NCBI RefSeq assembly: GCF_001458215.1
Contig: NZ_CYTW01000005.1
Location: 124,001 to 188,000, forward strand
Direction of reading: 5' to 3'
Length of the DNA: 64,000 bases
Source: Shimia thalassica
Lineage (GTDB): Bacteria; Pseudomonadota; Alphaproteobacteria; Rhodobacterales; Rhodobacteraceae
The position numbers and the translations under genes were made by a program. How positions within the stretch are numbered: the first letter of the stretch is position 1; each line of letters starts with the position of its first letter. This document shows, in pieces, positions 46,209 to 53,735 of the stretch. The notes under the pieces are model-generated. The model saw nothing but the letters and a program-made list of their open reading frames with translations. It was not told the origin of the DNA and did no database searches.

Positions 46209-47570
46209 ATGTCGCAAACTTTGTTAAGATATACCCGTGTTCTCGAAATCGTCGGCGATACCCTCAAGGTACGGGTGCCGCCGGGAGAAGACAGCGCCGT
46301 TGCCGTCCGGTTTGGCGACCTTGCCGTGATCTCGGCTGTGGACGGTTCAAAATCGCTCGCTCAGATCATTTTCATTGATCATGACGTGGTCACGCTTCAG
46401 GTCTATTCCGGCACCAAAGGCATTTCGACCGAAGCAACGGCAACCTTTCTGGGGCACCCCATGCAGGTGCCTTATTCCGGTAATATCCTCGGGCGCGTAT
46501 TTAACGGTGCGGGTGAAACCATCGACGGTGGCCCTGACCTTGCCGCCGAGCCCCGCGTGAGCATTGGCGGCCCGTCAGTGAACCCTATTGAGCGGTCGGT
46601 TCCAAGCCGTATGATCCGCACGGATGTGCCGATGATAGACGTTTTCAACACGCTGGTAGAGAGCCAGAAAATCCCGATCTTTTCGGTCTCGGGCGAGCCT
46701 TTCAACGCGTTCTTGTCCCGTATCGCCATTCAGGCCGATGCTGACATCGTGGTCTTTGGCGGCCTTGGGTTGATTTTTGACGACTTCTATACTTTCCGAA
46801 AAGCGTTTGAAGATGCAGGCGTGTTTTCGCGCACCGTGATGTTTGTCAATCAGGCGATGGATCCATTGGTCGAGCGGCTTCTTGTGCCGGATATGGTGCT
46901 TGCCGTTGCCGAAAAATTCGCAGTGGAAGAGGGCAAGCGCGTACTGGTCGCGATGACGGACATGACGGCCTATGCCGATGCGATGAAAGAGGTGGGGATC
47001 AGTCAGGAACGCGTGCCATCGAACCGCGGGTATATGGGCGATCTTTATTCCCAACTTGCGCGACGGTACGAAAAGGCGTGTGACTTTGCCAAGGGCGGAT
47101 CTGTGACCATTTTGGCGGTGACAACGATGCCCGGTAACGATGTCACCCATCCCGTGCCTGACAACACCGGATACATCACCGAAGGCCAGTTCTATCTGCA
47201 TTCCGGAATGCTTGATCCGTTTGGAAGCCTGTCTCGTCTCAAACAAAACGTCATCGGCAAAACCACGCGCGAGGATCACAGCCAGATCATGAATACCATG
47301 ATCCGTTTCTACTCCGAGTCGCGCGATGCTGCCCAAAAACAGGCTATGGCGTTCGAGTTGTCGGACTATGATCTTCAATTGCTAAAGTTTGGCGACCTGT
47401 TCCGTGACCGTTTTATGCGTCTGGACGTGTCTATGCCGCTTGAGGACGCTTTGGATCTTGGCTGGGAAACACTGGCCGAGTGTTTTGAAGCGGAACAACT
47501 TCTGATGAAACAGTCGCTTGTCGACAAATATTTTCCCAAAGAAACCCATGGCACGGCTGCAGCTGAATAA
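46209..47570 (+). CDS. ntpB: A/V-type ATPase subunit B
   Basis: A 453-residue non-catalytic nucleotide-binding subunit of the V1/A1 head. The N-terminal beta-barrel (residues 1-75) is followed by the Rossmann core; as expected for B subunits there is no Walker-A lysine (the position reads FSVSGEPFNAF). Typical segments: GRVFNGAGETIDGGP, RSVPSRMIRTDVPMIDVFN, VAEKFAVEEGKRVLVAMTDM and GYMGDLYSQLARRYE. Length is usual for the family (450-460). It is unusual that B is the first gene of the operon, with A last. It overlaps ntpD by 23 bases. Confidence 0.95.
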   Translation: MSQTLLRYTRVLEIVGDTLKVRVPPGEDSAVAVRFGDLAVISAVDGSKSLAQIIFIDHDVVTLQVYSGTKGISTEATATFLGHPMQVPYSGNILGRVFNGAGETIDGGPDLAAEPRVSIGGPSVNPIERSVPSRMIRTDVPMIDVFNTLVESQKIPIFSVSGEPFNAFLSRIAIQADADIVVFGGLGLIFDDFYTFRKAFEDAGVFSRTVMFVNQAMDPLVERLLVPDMVLAVAEKFAVEEGKRVLVAMTDMTAYADAMKEVGISQERVPSNRGYMGDLYSQLARRYEKACDFAKGGSVTILAVTTMPGNDVTHPVPDNTGYITEGQFYLHSGMLDPFGSLSRLKQNVIGKTTREDHSQIMNTMIRFYSESRDAAQKQAMAFELSDYDLQLLKFGDLFRDRFMRLDVSMPLEDALDLGWETLAECFEAEQLLMKQSLVDKYFPKETHGTAAAE

Positions 47571-48144
47571 ATCCTCATTGGCGCGTCAGGTGACGCAGCT
47601 TCAAAGCTACAAGCGCTTTCTGCCGTCGCTCGACCTGAAGCGTCAACAGCTTATGGCAGAGCGCGCGCGTGCCCGTACCGAGGCGAAAGCTCTGCGAACG
47701 GAAGTCGACGAATTGGTTCAACAGGTCGGAGAACGGCTTCCTATGTTGGCGCAAGAAGGCATTGATCTTGAGGGGCTGGTCGAACTGGATACCTACGATC
47801 TGACCGAAGTGAACGTGGTTGGCGTCAAGGTGCCCCAGCTTGCCGGTGTGCATGTCACGGTGCGCCCGTATTCCCCCATGGCCAAGCCCCACTGGGTTGA
47901 TAACCTCGCGCGGCTTTTGAAAGACGTGATCGAAACCCGGCTGCGGGTCAGCGTTGCCGAAGAACGTGTGCGGCTGTTTGAAAAGGCGGTCGATACGATA
48001 ACGCAACGGGTCAACCTGTTTGAAAAAGTGCTGATCCCTCAGACACAAGCCAACATCAAACGCATCCGGATTTACCTGAATGATGAACAGATTCAGGCGG
48101 TTGTGAGGTCCAAGCTCTCCAAACGAAAGAGAACGGTCGCATGA
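47548..48144 (+). CDS. ntpD: A/V-type ATPase subunit D (central stalk)
   Basis: A 198-residue protein, mostly two long antiparallel helices, the rotor shaft of the A/V-ATPase. The N-terminal helix (LNKSSLARQVTQLQSYKRF) and the C-terminal one (ETRLRVSVAEERVRLFEKA, then RVNLFEKVLIPQTQANIKRI) match NtpD/AtpD. The start is ATG 47548 inside the end of ntpB; the TTG at 47518 is unlikely. It ends in the start of ntpI (ATGA). Confidence 0.92.
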   Translation: MARLQLNKSSLARQVTQLQSYKRFLPSLDLKRQQLMAERARARTEAKALRTEVDELVQQVGERLPMLAQEGIDLEGLVELDTYDLTEVNVVGVKVPQLAGVHVTVRPYSPMAKPHWVDNLARLLKDVIETRLRVSVAEERVRLFEKAVDTITQRVNLFEKVLIPQTQANIKRIRIYLNDEQIQAVVRSKLSKRKRTVA

Positions 48145-49937
48145 CGGTTGCATCTCTCAAGAAAGTGACCCTGTTCGGTGATGCCACTGCCCGCACCGAG
48201 ACGATGGTGTTCCTGCAAGAGTTGGGCTGTATGCATCTGGTGCCGCTTGCCCCTTTGCCGGATGCCCCCGAACATGTTCAGTCGCGTGATGCCAAGGATG
48301 CCTATACCGCCTTGCGGTTTCTGGCCGAAGTCGGCACGCCACGCCGGCAGGTGCAGCGCGATCCCGGCTTTGATATGACACGGTTCGTGGCCGAGGTCTT
48401 GGACCTGTCCCACCGGATGCGCGAAATGCGGGATCGTCGGGATTTTCTGGTGCATCGCATCCGCGCGGTGCGTCCTTGGGGGGATCTGGAATTTCCACCG
48501 CACGAGGACCTTGCCGGAAACCGGCTTTGGTTCTACCGCCTGCCGGTGAAGCACCGCAAGGCGCTGGAACAGGTCGCTTTGCCTTGGTCCATCTTGGGGA
48601 CGGATCACCGGTTTCTGTATGTTGTGTTGATTGCTTTGGACGAGCCGGACGATGATGTTCTTCCGGTGGCGCGCACGCATACGGGTGCGCTGCCTATCAA
48701 GCAGCTAGAAGAACAGCTCGAAGATACGGAAATTGCCCTCGAAGCGTTAGAGGCCGAGCGGTTGGCCTCTACCCGCTATCTTGATTTGATGCGTAAAAAC
48801 CTGTCCGAAGCCGAAACCAAGGCCGAACTCGCCCACGCAGAACAGAAGGTCTTGGAAGAAGATCACCTTTTTGCGGTTCAGGGCTGGGTGCTTTCGGATC
48901 GGATTGAGGCTGTATTGGCAGGTGCCAAATCCCGAAAACTGGCCGCGACCATCGAAGAGCCCCGCGTCGATGAATTGCCGCCAACCCTGCTTGAGCAACC
49001 GGACAGCCGCAGTGCAGGGGTCGACCTTGCCATGTTCTATCAGGTGCCAAGCGCACGTGGTTGGGATCCAACCGTGATGTTGACACTGTCATTTGCCATT
49101 TTCTTTGCAATGATTGTGGCGGATGCGGGCTACGGCCTAGTTATTCTTGCCGGGCTTGGTCTGGGCTGGAAGGGACTCGGGAACACTGCAGCGCGCCGGT
49201 CCTGGCGCCGGCTGGGCCTCGGGATTGCTTTGGGGACTGTCGCATATGGTGTTCTGGTTGGTAGCTATTTTGGTGTGTCACCGGATCAAACCAGTGTTTG
49301 GGGCAAGCTTCAAATTCTTGATTTGAACGACTTTGGCGCGATGATGCTGCTGTCTATTGTTATCGGGGTGCTGCACCTTGTGATTGCCAATGCTCTGGCG
49401 GCGCGGGCGGCGTGGGGCACGCGCCATGCCATCGCCAACCTTGGCTGGATCGCGTCCTTGTTGGGCGGGCTTTTCCTGTGGCGGGCAAGCGTCGCAGAAC
49501 AGGCGACAGCCGTTCCCGTTGCCGTATTGGGGGCAGGGCTGGCGACGATCTTTGTTTTTTCCAGCGACCGCCCCATTCAGAAACCAACGGACTGGTTGTG
49601 GCGGATGCTCGACGGTGCCCAAGGCGTCAGCGGCGCGATGGGCGCCTTTGGCGATGTGCTGAGCTACATGCGGCTGTTCGCACTTGGGCTGGCCTCGGCA
49701 TCGCTGGCGATCACGTTCAATGATCTGGCCTTTGGCGTGATGCAGGCGTTGGAAGGGCCGGGGATGCTGTTCGGATTGCTCATCTTGCTTGTTGGCCATG
49801 CACTTAACTTCGGCCTCGCCCTGATGAGCGGCGTCGTGCATGGCTTGCGCCTTAATTACATCGAATTTTACAAATGGGGTTTGCCCGACGAAGGCGTCGC
49901 CTTCCGACCGCTCACCCGCAAGGAGCTTCAGGAATGA
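48141..49937 (+). CDS. ntpI: A/V-type ATPase subunit I (a-subunit)
   Basis: A 598-residue membrane subunit. The N-terminal ~300 residues are soluble and helical (coiled-coil around LEEQLEDTEIALEALEAERL); the C-terminal half has about seven to eight spans. The essential proton/sodium-channel arginine is Arg511 in LSYMRLFALGLASASLA. It starts early in the membrane part with TVMLTLSFAIFFAMIVADAG, a family hallmark. Somewhat shorter than archaeal homologues (~650). Overlaps its neighbours by ATGA on both sides. Confidence 0.94.
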   Translation: MTVASLKKVTLFGDATARTETMVFLQELGCMHLVPLAPLPDAPEHVQSRDAKDAYTALRFLAEVGTPRRQVQRDPGFDMTRFVAEVLDLSHRMREMRDRRDFLVHRIRAVRPWGDLEFPPHEDLAGNRLWFYRLPVKHRKALEQVALPWSILGTDHRFLYVVLIALDEPDDDVLPVARTHTGALPIKQLEEQLEDTEIALEALEAERLASTRYLDLMRKNLSEAETKAELAHAEQKVLEEDHLFAVQGWVLSDRIEAVLAGAKSRKLAATIEEPRVDELPPTLLEQPDSRSAGVDLAMFYQVPSARGWDPTVMLTLSFAIFFAMIVADAGYGLVILAGLGLGWKGLGNTAARRSWRRLGLGIALGTVAYGVLVGSYFGVSPDQTSVWGKLQILDLNDFGAMMLLSIVIGVLHLVIANALAARAAWGTRHAIANLGWIASLLGGLFLWRASVAEQATAVPVAVLGAGLATIFVFSSDRPIQKPTDWLWRMLDGAQGVSGAMGAFGDVLSYMRLFALGLASASLAITFNDLAFGVMQALEGPGMLFGLLILLVGHALNFGLALMSGVVHGLRLNYIEFYKWGLPDEGVAFRPLTRKELQE

Positions 49938-50380
49938 ATGAACTTGTTATGGCCCTTGGATGGCTTGGAATATATGCGCCTATGGCTCTTGGGGCCGTGG
50001 CTTCGGCAATTGGCTGTGCCATCGCGGGACAGGCGAGTATCGGCGCGATGACGGAAACCGATGGCGGGTACGGTCGTTTTGTCGGGATATCGGCCTTTCC
50101 GTCTACTTTCGTGATCTACGGGATCGTCATCATGTTCACGCTGAACCGCGAGGTGACGCCGGAAAATTCGCCCGGTTTGTTCGGCGTGGGAATCCTCGCC
50201 GGAATTGCGATGTTGTATTGCGGCATCTGGCAGGGGCGCGCCTGTGCGTCTGCGATCAATGCCGCCAAGGAAAAGCCCGAAATCTTCGGATTGGCCTTGG
50301 CACCCGCCGCAATCATTGAAGGCTTCGGCGTGTTTGCCTTTGTCTTTGCGCTTGTCATCAGCGGGGGGATCAGCGGATGA
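49934..50380 (+). CDS. ntpK: A/V-type ATPase subunit K (rotor c-ring proteolipid)
   Basis: A 148-residue, four-span proteolipid made of two fused hairpins. The ion-carrying glutamate is Glu129 in PAAIIEGFGVFAF. Compared with the Na+-binding NtpK of Enterococcus hirae, Thr58 and Gln100 (GIWQGR) are kept, but the key Gln65 equivalent is Phe59 (PSTFVIYG), and Leu61 is Phe55. One expected Na+ ligand is therefore lost, which favours H+ coupling or an altered site. The first hairpin has no carboxylate, as usual for V-type K. Confidence 0.93.
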   Translation: MNELVMALGWLGIYAPMALGAVASAIGCAIAGQASIGAMTETDGGYGRFVGISAFPSTFVIYGIVIMFTLNREVTPENSPGLFGVGILAGIAMLYCGIWQGRACASAINAAKEKPEIFGLALAPAAIIEGFGVFAFVFALVISGGISG

Positions 50381-51054
50381 CAAAGCAAGGCATTGTTTCA
50401 CACGGTGTTGACGAGCTGATTGATAAGCTGCGCAACGACGGTATCGCGGCAGGGCGCCAAGAGGCGGAACGCCTGCAGGCCGAAGCCGAAGCAGAAGCCG
50501 CGCGGATCGTGGCAGAAGCCAAGAAAGAGGCGACCGGCTATTTGCGCAAGGCCCACACCGATGCCGACAACTATGTCAAAGCCGGAGAAGAGGCGCTCAA
50601 CACCGCGATGCGCGATGCTGTTCTGTCGATGAAAAGCGAACTGACCCGGCGCTTTGCGGCGGATGTCCAACGCCTTGTCACACAGGAAATGGCCGATCCG
50701 GAGTTGATGCGCCAACTGATCCTCGAAGTGGTCGGGACCACGGCCCGCCAAGCGGACCTTGAAGGCAAAATTGACGTGATCCTTCCGGAAAAAGCAGCCA
50801 CGCAGGAAGACATCAAAAAGAACGCGGATGATATCCAGCACGGCAAGCTGACCAAATATGTACTGGGCCTCACGGCAGAGATGCTGCGCGAAGACGTGAC
50901 ACTGCATGTGGCGGATGATCTGAAAGAAGGCATCCGCATGCGGTCTGACGGCGAGGGCGTTGTTCTTGACCTGTCAGATGCGGCGGTTGGGTCGGTTTTG
51001 CTGGAACACCTGCAACCCCGGTTCCAAGCCGTTTTGGATGGTGTGATCCGTTAA
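50377..51054 (+). CDS. ntpE: A/V-type ATPase subunit E (peripheral stalk)
   Basis: A 225-residue protein with a long Ala/Glu-rich N-terminal helix (residues 8-95; ERLQAEAEAEAARIVAEAKK) and a globular C-terminal domain (SVLLEHLQPRFQAVLDGVI) typical of subunit E. In A/V-ATPases E normally pairs with a G/H subunit; none is recognisable here. Overlaps ntpK by four bases; the next gene starts one base after its stop. Confidence 0.87.
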   Translation: MTKQGIVSHGVDELIDKLRNDGIAAGRQEAERLQAEAEAEAARIVAEAKKEATGYLRKAHTDADNYVKAGEEALNTAMRDAVLSMKSELTRRFAADVQRLVTQEMADPELMRQLILEVVGTTARQADLEGKIDVILPEKAATQEDIKKNADDIQHGKLTKYVLGLTAEMLREDVTLHVADDLKEGIRMRSDGEGVVLDLSDAAVGSVLLEHLQPRFQAVLDGVIR

Positions 51055-51055
51055 G

Positions 51056-51748
51056 ATGTCCGACCGCGACGCATACACCGCTTTGGTGTGCAGCCTGCCC
51101 AATTCCGAACGGCTGTTCATTGCCAAGAAGCCCCCGTTGTCACGCTTGCGGCTGGACAGCCGCCTCAAGGCGCTGACGGTTGCGGATGCCGAGGTGCTTG
51201 CCCGTCTCGAGCATGTTCTGAGCTGGAATGAATATGCGGTCGATATTACGGACGCCGTGGCACTCAAACGGGTGCGTGACGCCCTAAAGGTGATCCGGCA
51301 GCCTGCGCTGCGTAAAATTGTGCACGAACGGATGGAGATGCGCACCGCCATGTCAGCCTTGCGATTGCGACGTGACGGGCTTGCCCCTCCGGCGGGTGCG
51401 TTTGGCTTCGGGCGCTGGGCCCGCCATATTCCCGCACATTGGGCCGAGTCCTGCTTTGGTCTTGGAGCTGCGCTGCCTTGGTTGAAAGAGGCACAGCGCC
51501 TGATCGAAAGTGATGATCCTCTCGCGCTTGAGCGGCACCTTTTGGACACAAGTTATCTGATGTTGAAACGCCACGCTGCCCGTCACCAGTTCGATTTCGA
51601 AGCGGTGGCCATCTACGTGCTGATCTGGAACATCTTTGACCGCTGGGCCCAAAGTGATGCTTCGGCTGCAGCCCGCCGTTTTGAATTTCTTGCCCACGCC
51701 GCAATGGCGCAACTGGGCGATATCCGTTTTGAGGGAGAGCCCGCATGA
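51056..51748 (+). CDS. DUF2764-like V-ATPase operon protein (possible subunit C substitute)
   Basis: A 230-residue, largely helical protein. Its N terminus (YTALVCSLPNSERLF, then PPLSRLRLDSRLKAL) resembles the YxLVASLPxL start of DUF2764 proteins found in the same place of Treponema/Bacteroides-type V-ATPase operons. It lies exactly between E and A, where those operons carry DUF2764. No classical C or F subunit gene is present, so this protein may supply the rotor-to-membrane collar. The sequence is divergent, Arg/Ala/Leu-rich, and ends RFEGEPA, overlapping ntpA. Family call is tentative; membership of the complex is inferred from gene order. Confidence 0.65.
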   Translation: MSDRDAYTALVCSLPNSERLFIAKKPPLSRLRLDSRLKALTVADAEVLARLEHVLSWNEYAVDITDAVALKRVRDALKVIRQPALRKIVHERMEMRTAMSALRLRRDGLAPPAGAFGFGRWARHIPAHWAESCFGLGAALPWLKEAQRLIESDDPLALERHLLDTSYLMLKRHAARHQFDFEAVAIYVLIWNIFDRWAQSDASAAARRFEFLAHAAMAQLGDIRFEGEPA

Positions 51749-53595
51749 ATGCCCCCACCGACCCGACCCAGACCGTCACCGCACGCGTGGTCACTGTTCA
51801 GGAAGACCTCGTCAGAATTCAGGCGCTGCCCCAATCGGACGGCGCACCCGGACATCTGGTGAAAAACGAGGTGGTGTATATCCTGCCGTCCAAGCTGGGT
51901 GTGTCCGGCCGCCAAGAGCGTCTCAAGGCCGAGATTTTGCTGGTCAGAGGCGATACCGCCGATGTTCAGGTGTATGAAAGCACTGCTGGTGTGGCCGTCG
52001 GGGACGGTGTGGAACAAACAGGGCTGATGCTGTCTGTCGAGCTGGGGCCGGGCCTTTTGGGACAGGTCTATGATGGGCTGCAATCCCCCTTGCCAAAAGT
52101 GGCCGCCGGATACGGGACCTTTCTGCCGCGCGGGGTTGATGTGCCTGCCATTGATCAACAGGCAAAATGGTCCTTTTCTCCCAAGATCAAAGTCGGGGAT
52201 ACCGTTCGTGCCGGCGACAGCATCGGTTCGGTTCCTGAAGGGCGGTTTGTGCACAAGATCATGGTTCCCTTTAACTGGCCCGGCACCTACCGCGTTGTCT
52301 GGATTCAGGAAGGCGCCGCACAGGTGCATGATGTCGTGGCCCGGCTTGAGGATGAAAACGGAGGAGAGCACCCTCTGACGTTGTCTCAACGATGGCCGGT
52401 CCGCCGGTCCCTGCCGCTTCATCTGCTCAAACGTGCCTTGTCGCAACGCACCTATCCGGACGAGCCGGTTTTGACATCGCAGCGTCTGATCGACACGTTT
52501 TTCCCGATCGCACGGGGCGGGACCGCCTGTATTCCCGGCCCGTTTGGCGCGGGGAAAACCGTGTTGCAAAACCTGATTGCGCGGAACGCAAAAGTGGACG
52601 TTGTGATTGTTGTGGCATGTGGTGAACGGGCCGGTGAAGTTGTGGAAACCATCAATGAGTTTCCCAAGATGACGGACCCGATATCCGGCGGAAGCCTGAT
52701 GGATCGCACGATCATCATCTGTAACACATCATCCATGCCGGTGGCCGCACGCGAAGCCTCGATCTTTACGGGGATCACGCTGGGTGAATACTATCGCCAG
52801 ATGGGGCTGAACGTTCTTCTTATTGCCGACAGCACCTCGCGCTGGGCCCAAGCCATGCGTGAAACTTCCGGCAAACTCGAAGAAATTCCGGGCGAAGAAG
52901 GCTTTCCCGCATATTTGGAAAGCTCGATCAAAGGGCTTTATGAGCGCGCAGGTGTCATTCAGTGCAATGACGGGGATATGGGCAGCCTTACATTGATTGG
53001 AACAGTGTCGCCTGCGGGGGGCAATTTCGACGAACCTGTCACTCAATCCACGCTTTCGACCGTCAAATGCTTTCTCGGGCTGTCATCCGAGCGGGCCTAC
53101 AAACGGTTTTACCCCGCAGTGGACCCGCTTCTCAGCTGGTCGCGTTATCAGGATCAGCTGTCTGACTGGTATGAACGCCAGATTCAGCCGGGCTGGGTCG
53201 GGCGCGTCAAGGAAATGCAGGCTTTGCTGGAACGGGGCGAACAGATTTCGCAGATGATGCAAGTCACCGGCGAAGAGGGGGTCACGCTCGAGGATTTCAT
53301 CACGCAGCAAGCGGCCTTGTTCCTTGATATGGTGTACCTCCAGCAGGATGCCTTTGACAAAGTCGACGCCACCGTACCGATGGAGCGCCAAAAGCTGACC
53401 TTTGGGCTGGTCTACGAGGTGTGCAGTGCGCACCCTGAGTTTTCCGAGAAAGCCGAAGTGCGTCAGTTCTTTACCCAGCTGACAGGCCTGATGAAAAACT
53501 TCCACTATGCGGCTCTGGACACTCCGGAATACGCGCGGCTTCTTGAGGAAATTCGGGATCTTTGCCGCGCCCGCATTTCGGGTTTTCACGGGTAA
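51745..53595 (+). CDS. ntpA: A/V-type ATPase catalytic subunit A
   Basis: A 616-residue catalytic subunit. Walker A is GPFGAGKT (265-272); the catalytic Glu region is [18 protein letters not shown]; Walker B is [18 protein letters not shown]. The ~90-residue 'non-homologous region' insert specific to A subunits is present around residues 110-200 ([10 protein letters not shown] to GTYRVVW). Length is slightly longer than typical (580-600). It is the last gene of the operon, whereas A is followed by B in nearly all A/V-ATPase operons. Confidence 0.95.
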
Positions 53596-53610
53596 TTCCG
53601 AAAGCCGGCG

Positions 53611-53641
53611 TTGTAACAAAGACGTCCTCTTGGCGTTACAA
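53611..53641. promoter_or_regulatory. Interrupted inverted repeat before the polyamine-type binding protein gene
   Basis: TTGTAAC (53611-53617) and GTTACAA (53635-53641), 17 bases apart, lie about 100 bases upstream of the binding-protein gene and just after ntpA. It could be a regulator site or a weak hairpin; there is no second copy. Confidence 0.3.
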
Positions 53642-53735
53642 AACCTTTATCGACTGGTCACACCTCTGACTCAGTGCGTCCCTAACGATCGGCGGGACAA
53701 ACACTGGTTCATCAATATCCCAAGAGGTTCTGACC

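Follow-up and report, generated by a model that had tools for sequence, protein, structure and literature searches.

The window analysed here is a stretch of 64,000 nucleotides from Shimia thalassica (contig NZ_CYTW01000005.1, positions 124,001 to 188,000), where seven genes, at positions 46,209 to 53,595, probably encode a complete minimal rotary ATPase of the V/A type. In the proposed machine the product of the sixth gene, indicated as X, would take the place of the central collar (subunit C/d), and the enzyme, belonging to a clade whose operons begin with subunit B, would act as an ATP-driven proton pump beside the F-type synthase of the same cell. The genes, their coupling and order, the clade, the ion-site residues and the absence of recognisable F and G subunits are read directly from the sequence. 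Among the hallmarks of a V/A-type enzyme, catalytic A and non-catalytic B, a D axle, an I stator, a K proteolipid and an E stalk are present:

46209..47570, + strand: subunit B, non-catalytic, without Walker A; 453 amino acids (aa); NF002555, 694 bits against a cut-off of 431
47548..48144, + strand: subunit D, rotor axle; 198 aa; PF01813, 2e-37; TIGR00309 above cut-off
48141..49937, + strand: subunit I/a, ion half-channel stator; 598 aa; PF01496 above cut-off
49934..50380, + strand: subunit K/c, four-helix proteolipid; 148 aa, one carboxylate, E129; PF00137, 2.6e-22; NF007200 above cut-off
50377..51054, + strand: subunit E, peripheral stalk; 225 aa; NF002424, 4.9e-27, below cut-off
51056..51748, + strand: X, DUF2764-like, proposed shortened subunit C/d; 230 aa
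51745..53595, + strand: subunit A, catalytic; 616 aa; Walker A GPFGAGKT; NF003220, 753 bits against a cut-off of 470

All seven frames are open and run in one direction, neighbours overlapping by 4 to 23 bases (23 for D and B) or lying 1 base apart. The starts of D (47548) and K (49934) were set by comparison with relatives and both differ from the longest open reading frame (ORF); family-model searches took D from 47575 and K from 49874. The curated NCBIfam cut-off is passed by B, D, K and A, and the Pfam cut-off by I; subunit A also matches PF16886, the insert domain. For E, a structure model (pLDDT 71) gives V-ATPase stalk chains as the best Foldseek rows (E 1.5e-3). ORFs and family models thus bear out the series of coupled genes, B-D-I-K-E-(DUF2764-like)-A, reported in the first-pass annotation.

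A genome scan based on B led to 364 confirmed relatives, of which 80, picked by B identity, were kept and joined to three plasmid records; 24 of the 80 are close Ruegeria or like (L016-L039). The complete order B-D-I-K-E-X-A is found in 71 of these 83 loci, over 71–86% B identity. The other 12 feature only its leading part, and none a different order: seven of them end at a contig end or at the edge of the analysed stretch, in two tubeworm symbionts (L082, L088) A lies about a kilobase past that stretch, and in Thiocystis (L084) B stands alone, with A at another place, on a contig of equal length. As for motifs, G....GKT is absent from all 84 B proteins examined, G.FG.GKT is present in 71 of 71 A proteins, and SY.RL.ALGLA, which we take to be the arginine motif of the ion half-channel stator, in 79 of 80 I proteins. 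The hosts are alpha-, beta- and gammaproteobacteria and cyanobacteria; a Saprospiraceae bin (L044) nests among the alphaproteobacteria, and its assignment may be wrong. Within the family, B scores above thresholds in 6 of 295 genomes, the sole same-genus genome being without it, and in a sample of the phylum in 7 of 398; five of the pump-bearing family genomes seemingly correspond to records already among the 83. Such a patchy distribution, along with the plasmid-borne copies found in relatives, fits the horizontal acquisition suggested by the first-pass annotation. The three loci L147-L149, from the tubeworm symbionts and Thiocystis, contain a second, more distant A (43–44% identity), and these hosts perhaps, for this reason, have two V-type enzymes.

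It might be supposed that the operon is a non-functional relic of transfer, and some relatives are indeed broken or incomplete: D, I, E and A of the Ruegeria haliotis copy (L041) contain several short ORFs, and for the Halomonas plasmid copy (L015) only B-D-I-K is present, E, X and A not being found in the analysed stretch. The window operon, however, has its seven frames open and its motifs retained, and the conservation of the gene order over such a range of B identity also speaks against decay; a relic is very improbable.

A tree of concatenated A and B, comprising 60 rows, unites all 50 B-first members in a single clade (SH-aLRT 99), with Bacteroides outside, and places the window next to Ruegeria (support 100). 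In a second tree of 61 rows, L110, a locus with the order D-I-K-E-X-A-B, nests in a seven-row set with the cyanobacteria (support 99). Both trees are quick ones, without bootstrap and with long outgroup branches; one locus with a cut A gene was skipped in the first, while three long outgroup rows were dropped and four rows added in the second. By its rotated order, the window operon is placed in a sister clade of the Bacteroides-type minimal (DUF2764) subtype, and does not have the Bacteroides arrangement. The minimal V-ATPases of Borrelia, Chlamydia, Kuenenia and Bacteroides, as described in the accessible parts of PMC2936114 and PMC10790697, likewise comprise A, B, D, I, K and E, an unnamed gene preceding A, with a four-helix K bearing one carboxylate, no recognised F or G, and a B falling in NF002555; the present clade differs in being B-first, separate and well supported.

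Two annotated records confirm that rotating the Bacteroides-type order, E-DUF2764-A-B-D-I-K, gives exactly the window order, as originally claimed. Three firmicute records read I-K-E-C-F-A-B-D, and a Rubrobacter record D-x-I-K-E-C-F-A-B; the hypothetical gene preceding I in Rubrobacter and Enterococcus is presumably G/H. All these orders, like those of the window and L110, are cuts of a single circle, I-K-E-C-(F)-A-B-D, which accounts for eight annotated orders and where X occupies the position of C, or of C-F. A Streptomyces record keeps I-K ... A-B-D with C placed before I, so that the circular order is a strong tendency, not a law. Compared with the canonical Enterococcus-type operon, homologues of A, B, D, I, K and E follow the same circular order, but F and G/H are not found, the shortened X would replace C, and the circle is cut between A and B.

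The first-pass annotation read the rotation as a rearrangement after horizontal acquisition; as a recent event particular to this lineage, a Bacteroides-type operon would have been acquired and locally rotated to give a collar-less machine. The exactness of the rotation and the patchy distribution are in favour of such an event. Against it are the constancy of the order among the relatives, the grouping of the B-first rows in one clade away from Bacteroides, and the resemblance of X to subunit C; we regard it as very improbable. B-first is the usual arrangement in a broad clade, a finding that the first-pass annotation had itself named as a refutation, and a local rearrangement is not supported. 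For the ancient rotation, tandem duplication with loss is a possible origin. A later rotation inside the clade is seen in L110, as this D-first locus nests among B-first ones; rotation therefore recurs.

X is probably a shortened subunit C/d, that is, the central collar, as suggested by a structure model and by transitive profiles. The DUF2764-like gene stands between E and A, as in the minimal V-ATPase subtype. The window protein matches the DUF2764 model weakly (E 0.028, below cut-off), while 32 of 46 family members, out of 76 X proteins available, match it at E<=0.01 (best 8.7e-12), several above cut-off; a Bacteroides DUF2764 protein in turn matches AC39, the model of subunit C (E 4e-6). 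When the structure model of X is compared with PDB, the top seven of 801 aligned chains are V-ATPase chains, two of them titled subunit C. Subunit C has a three-lobed build; X is about 100 residues shorter than subunit C/d (AC39; 1r5z, 1v9m, 6ly9), and its length in the B-first clade, about 230 aa, compares with 280–292 in Bacteroides-type records. In the Tateyamaria plasmid (L013:16846-17537) X is annotated in two pieces. The DUF2764 gene is called of unknown function in the accessible part of PMC10790697, the sole work found joining DUF2764 with a V-type ATPase. The complex without a central collar, envisaged from the first reading of the sequence, is accordingly probably wrong. X might instead be a clade-specific assembly or regulatory protein of similar helical fold, leaving no collar; with V-ATPase chains at the top of the structural comparison and the transitive link to AC39, this appears improbable.

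The statement that no C, F or G subunit is recognisable stands in part: F and G were not found genome-wide, while X is probably C. The ATP-synt_F model has no match in the whole genome at E up to 10, and the sole match of the G/H model, of 10 bits, falls within E. The AC39 model, over the whole genome, also has no match; as it fails to detect X, divergent F or G subunits would be missed likewise, and their absence is an absence of recognisable homologues only. Minimal V-ATPase clusters without C, F and G have been reported (PMC2936114, in the part accessible). Among the relatives, operon gaps were examined in L085, L091, L078 and L108. In the two cyanobacterial loci, L085 and L091, the long gap between B and D is occupied by a polyphosphate kinase 2 (PPK2) gene, and a hidden F gene there was rejected; the gap of L078 contains no co-directional ORF of at least 40 aa, and that of L108 nothing convincing as F.

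The K subunit, of which 17 proteins were compared, carries one carboxylate per four helices, E129, which lines up with E139 in the E. hirae ring (2bl2). The ring carboxylate is present in all 79 loci where K could be read, as is Q at the Q110 position. At the Q65 position, in contrast, residues vary (F is found in 32 and M in 30, with two cases of N, one of L, and Q in the others); the K of the B-first clade is often without the Q65-type sodium ligand of the Bacteroides-type enzymes, and the controls L114, L115, L116, L118, L119, L121 and L122 all have Q. Parsimony on the tree gives 5 changes between Q and not-Q. The window K has F there and lacks the full E. hirae Na+ ligand set; by the ligand rule in the accessible part of PMC2359735, the window enzyme is therefore most likely a proton transporter, while the relatives keeping Q may move sodium.

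The window genome (4.35 Mb in 12 contigs, the operon lying on contig C5 of 248,048 bases) contains F-type alpha/beta-like genes on another contig, C1, named from gene length and place, in keeping with the earlier view of the minimal type as a second rotary enzyme. The zeta inhibitor of F-type synthases, a brake on their hydrolysis, is also encoded. The presence of a V-type ATPase beside an F-type one in such bacteria is not new: a table of 2008 already included Labrenzia, several gammaproteobacteria and Synechococcus (PMC2359735, in the part accessible).

In the proposed mechanism, hydrolysis of ATP by the A3B3 head would turn D, X and the K ring, with the D axle resting on X, which would serve as C/d collar above the ring; ions would cross at stator I, with E, as peripheral stalk, holding the head. 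Lacking F and G, the complex might assemble with D alone as axle and E pairing with itself. The direction would be pumping and the ion H+. The occasion may be a loss of respiration, where the F-type enzyme, held by zeta, could not pump, and the fuel would then be ATP from carbamate kinase, acetate kinase, PPDK or polyphosphate.

Such fuel is suggested by the neighbours of the operon in relatives. Genes for ATP-making phosphotransfer are near or inside it in 27 of 83 loci (26 of 59 once the Ruegeria block is set aside), a count which, the enzyme set having been chosen after the neighbours were seen, is no test. Arginine deiminase pathway genes are beside the operon in 18 of the 83; deiminase, ornithine carbamoyltransferase and carbamate kinase occur jointly in 13 loci, 12 of which have them upstream and in the same orientation, and in L013, L042 and L043 the carbamate kinase gene runs into the start of B. 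Near the operon, 8 loci have acetate kinase and/or Pta-like genes and 4 have PPK2, including the two cyanobacterial loci where it lies between B and D (L085:11386-12204, L091:1981-2799); PPDK is directly upstream in L073, and pyruvate formate-lyase with a likely activase in L076. L013 and L047, and Tateyamaria loci generally, are close kin, so that events are fewer than loci. A deiminase gene is found in 36 of the 295 family genomes, and the expected chance adjacency within 10 kb is well under one locus. Over the tree, carbamate kinase-type neighbours require 9 changes against 14.3 when shuffled; the deiminase gene shows no clade signal (11 against a shuffled mean of 11.6). An independent case of deiminase/V-ATPase neighbourhood is observed in Enterococcus gallinarum (L118:1-1512), where a canonical V-ATPase operon opens, with a small gene, 371 bases after the end of arcA; no link between V-type ATPases and arginine deiminase operons, Roseobacter included, was found in the accessible parts of the literature. 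L013, L047, L054 and L061 share an upstream block of PhaC-like, FabI and MaoC-Pta genes, with acetate kinase in three of the four, and DUF3141 genes adjoin the pump in L028 and L054.

Several observations weigh against a proton pump with X as its collar, fed in this way. No direct profile match of X to subunit C (AC39) is found, the sequence being too divergent; none of these ATP-making neighbours is present at the window operon; and pump and deiminase pathway do not co-occur significantly when whole genomes are compared (2 of 6 against 34 of 289, p 0.16). The window genome has no deiminase above cut-off; acetate kinase is present, away from the operon. Moreover, 14 of the 79 K subunits keep Q at the Q65 position, and the related minimal V-ATPase of Bacteroides fragilis has been suggested to make ATP through H+ or Na+ entry (PMC10790697, in the part accessible). 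Both facts would agree with an enzyme running mainly as an ATP synthase on either ion. Such a role seems unlikely, as an F-type synthase is already present, the neighbours in relatives themselves make ATP, and one carboxylate per four helices lowers the ions per ATP. Fewer carboxylates per helix are poor for synthesis and suit pumping.

At its flanks, the window operon has LacI regulator, beta-barrel and solute-binding genes. These are not common neighbours: the loci searched gave a single match, to LacI at 27%, in L021. Between A and the solute-binding gene that follows it (53596-53735) no terminator-like site is listed, so that read-through into the downstream ABC transporter cluster is possible. 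No FNR-like box is found within two mismatches upstream of the window operon; within one mismatch, boxes occur in 7 of 82 relatives, against 0.9% of single-base shuffles, and in the gammaproteobacterial L063, L064, L072 and L076 they lie at -95 to -101, before B. A search of the genome for partition genes gave a sole match, below cut-off and on a contig other than that of the operon.

For the clade as a whole, a broader proposal is possible, and held more tentatively than that for the window enzyme. A widespread clade may have lost F and G and kept a shrunken, two-lobed C, becoming a dedicated pump on non-respiratory ATP, from carbamate kinase, acetate kinase, PPK2 or PPDK beside or inside the operon; it would back up F-type synthases unable to reverse, its ring switching between Na+ and H+ several times. 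If X and DUF2764 are the collar, one of the three gaps (C, F, G) closes, and the smallest V-type rotor could be defined. The ATP-making neighbours would provide, within the literature searched, the first concrete idea of the role of the pump in this clade, and its K subunits a natural set for the study of Na+ to H+ switching. The rotation within one clade indicates that a circular gene order can stay fixed although the point where it is cut open changes.
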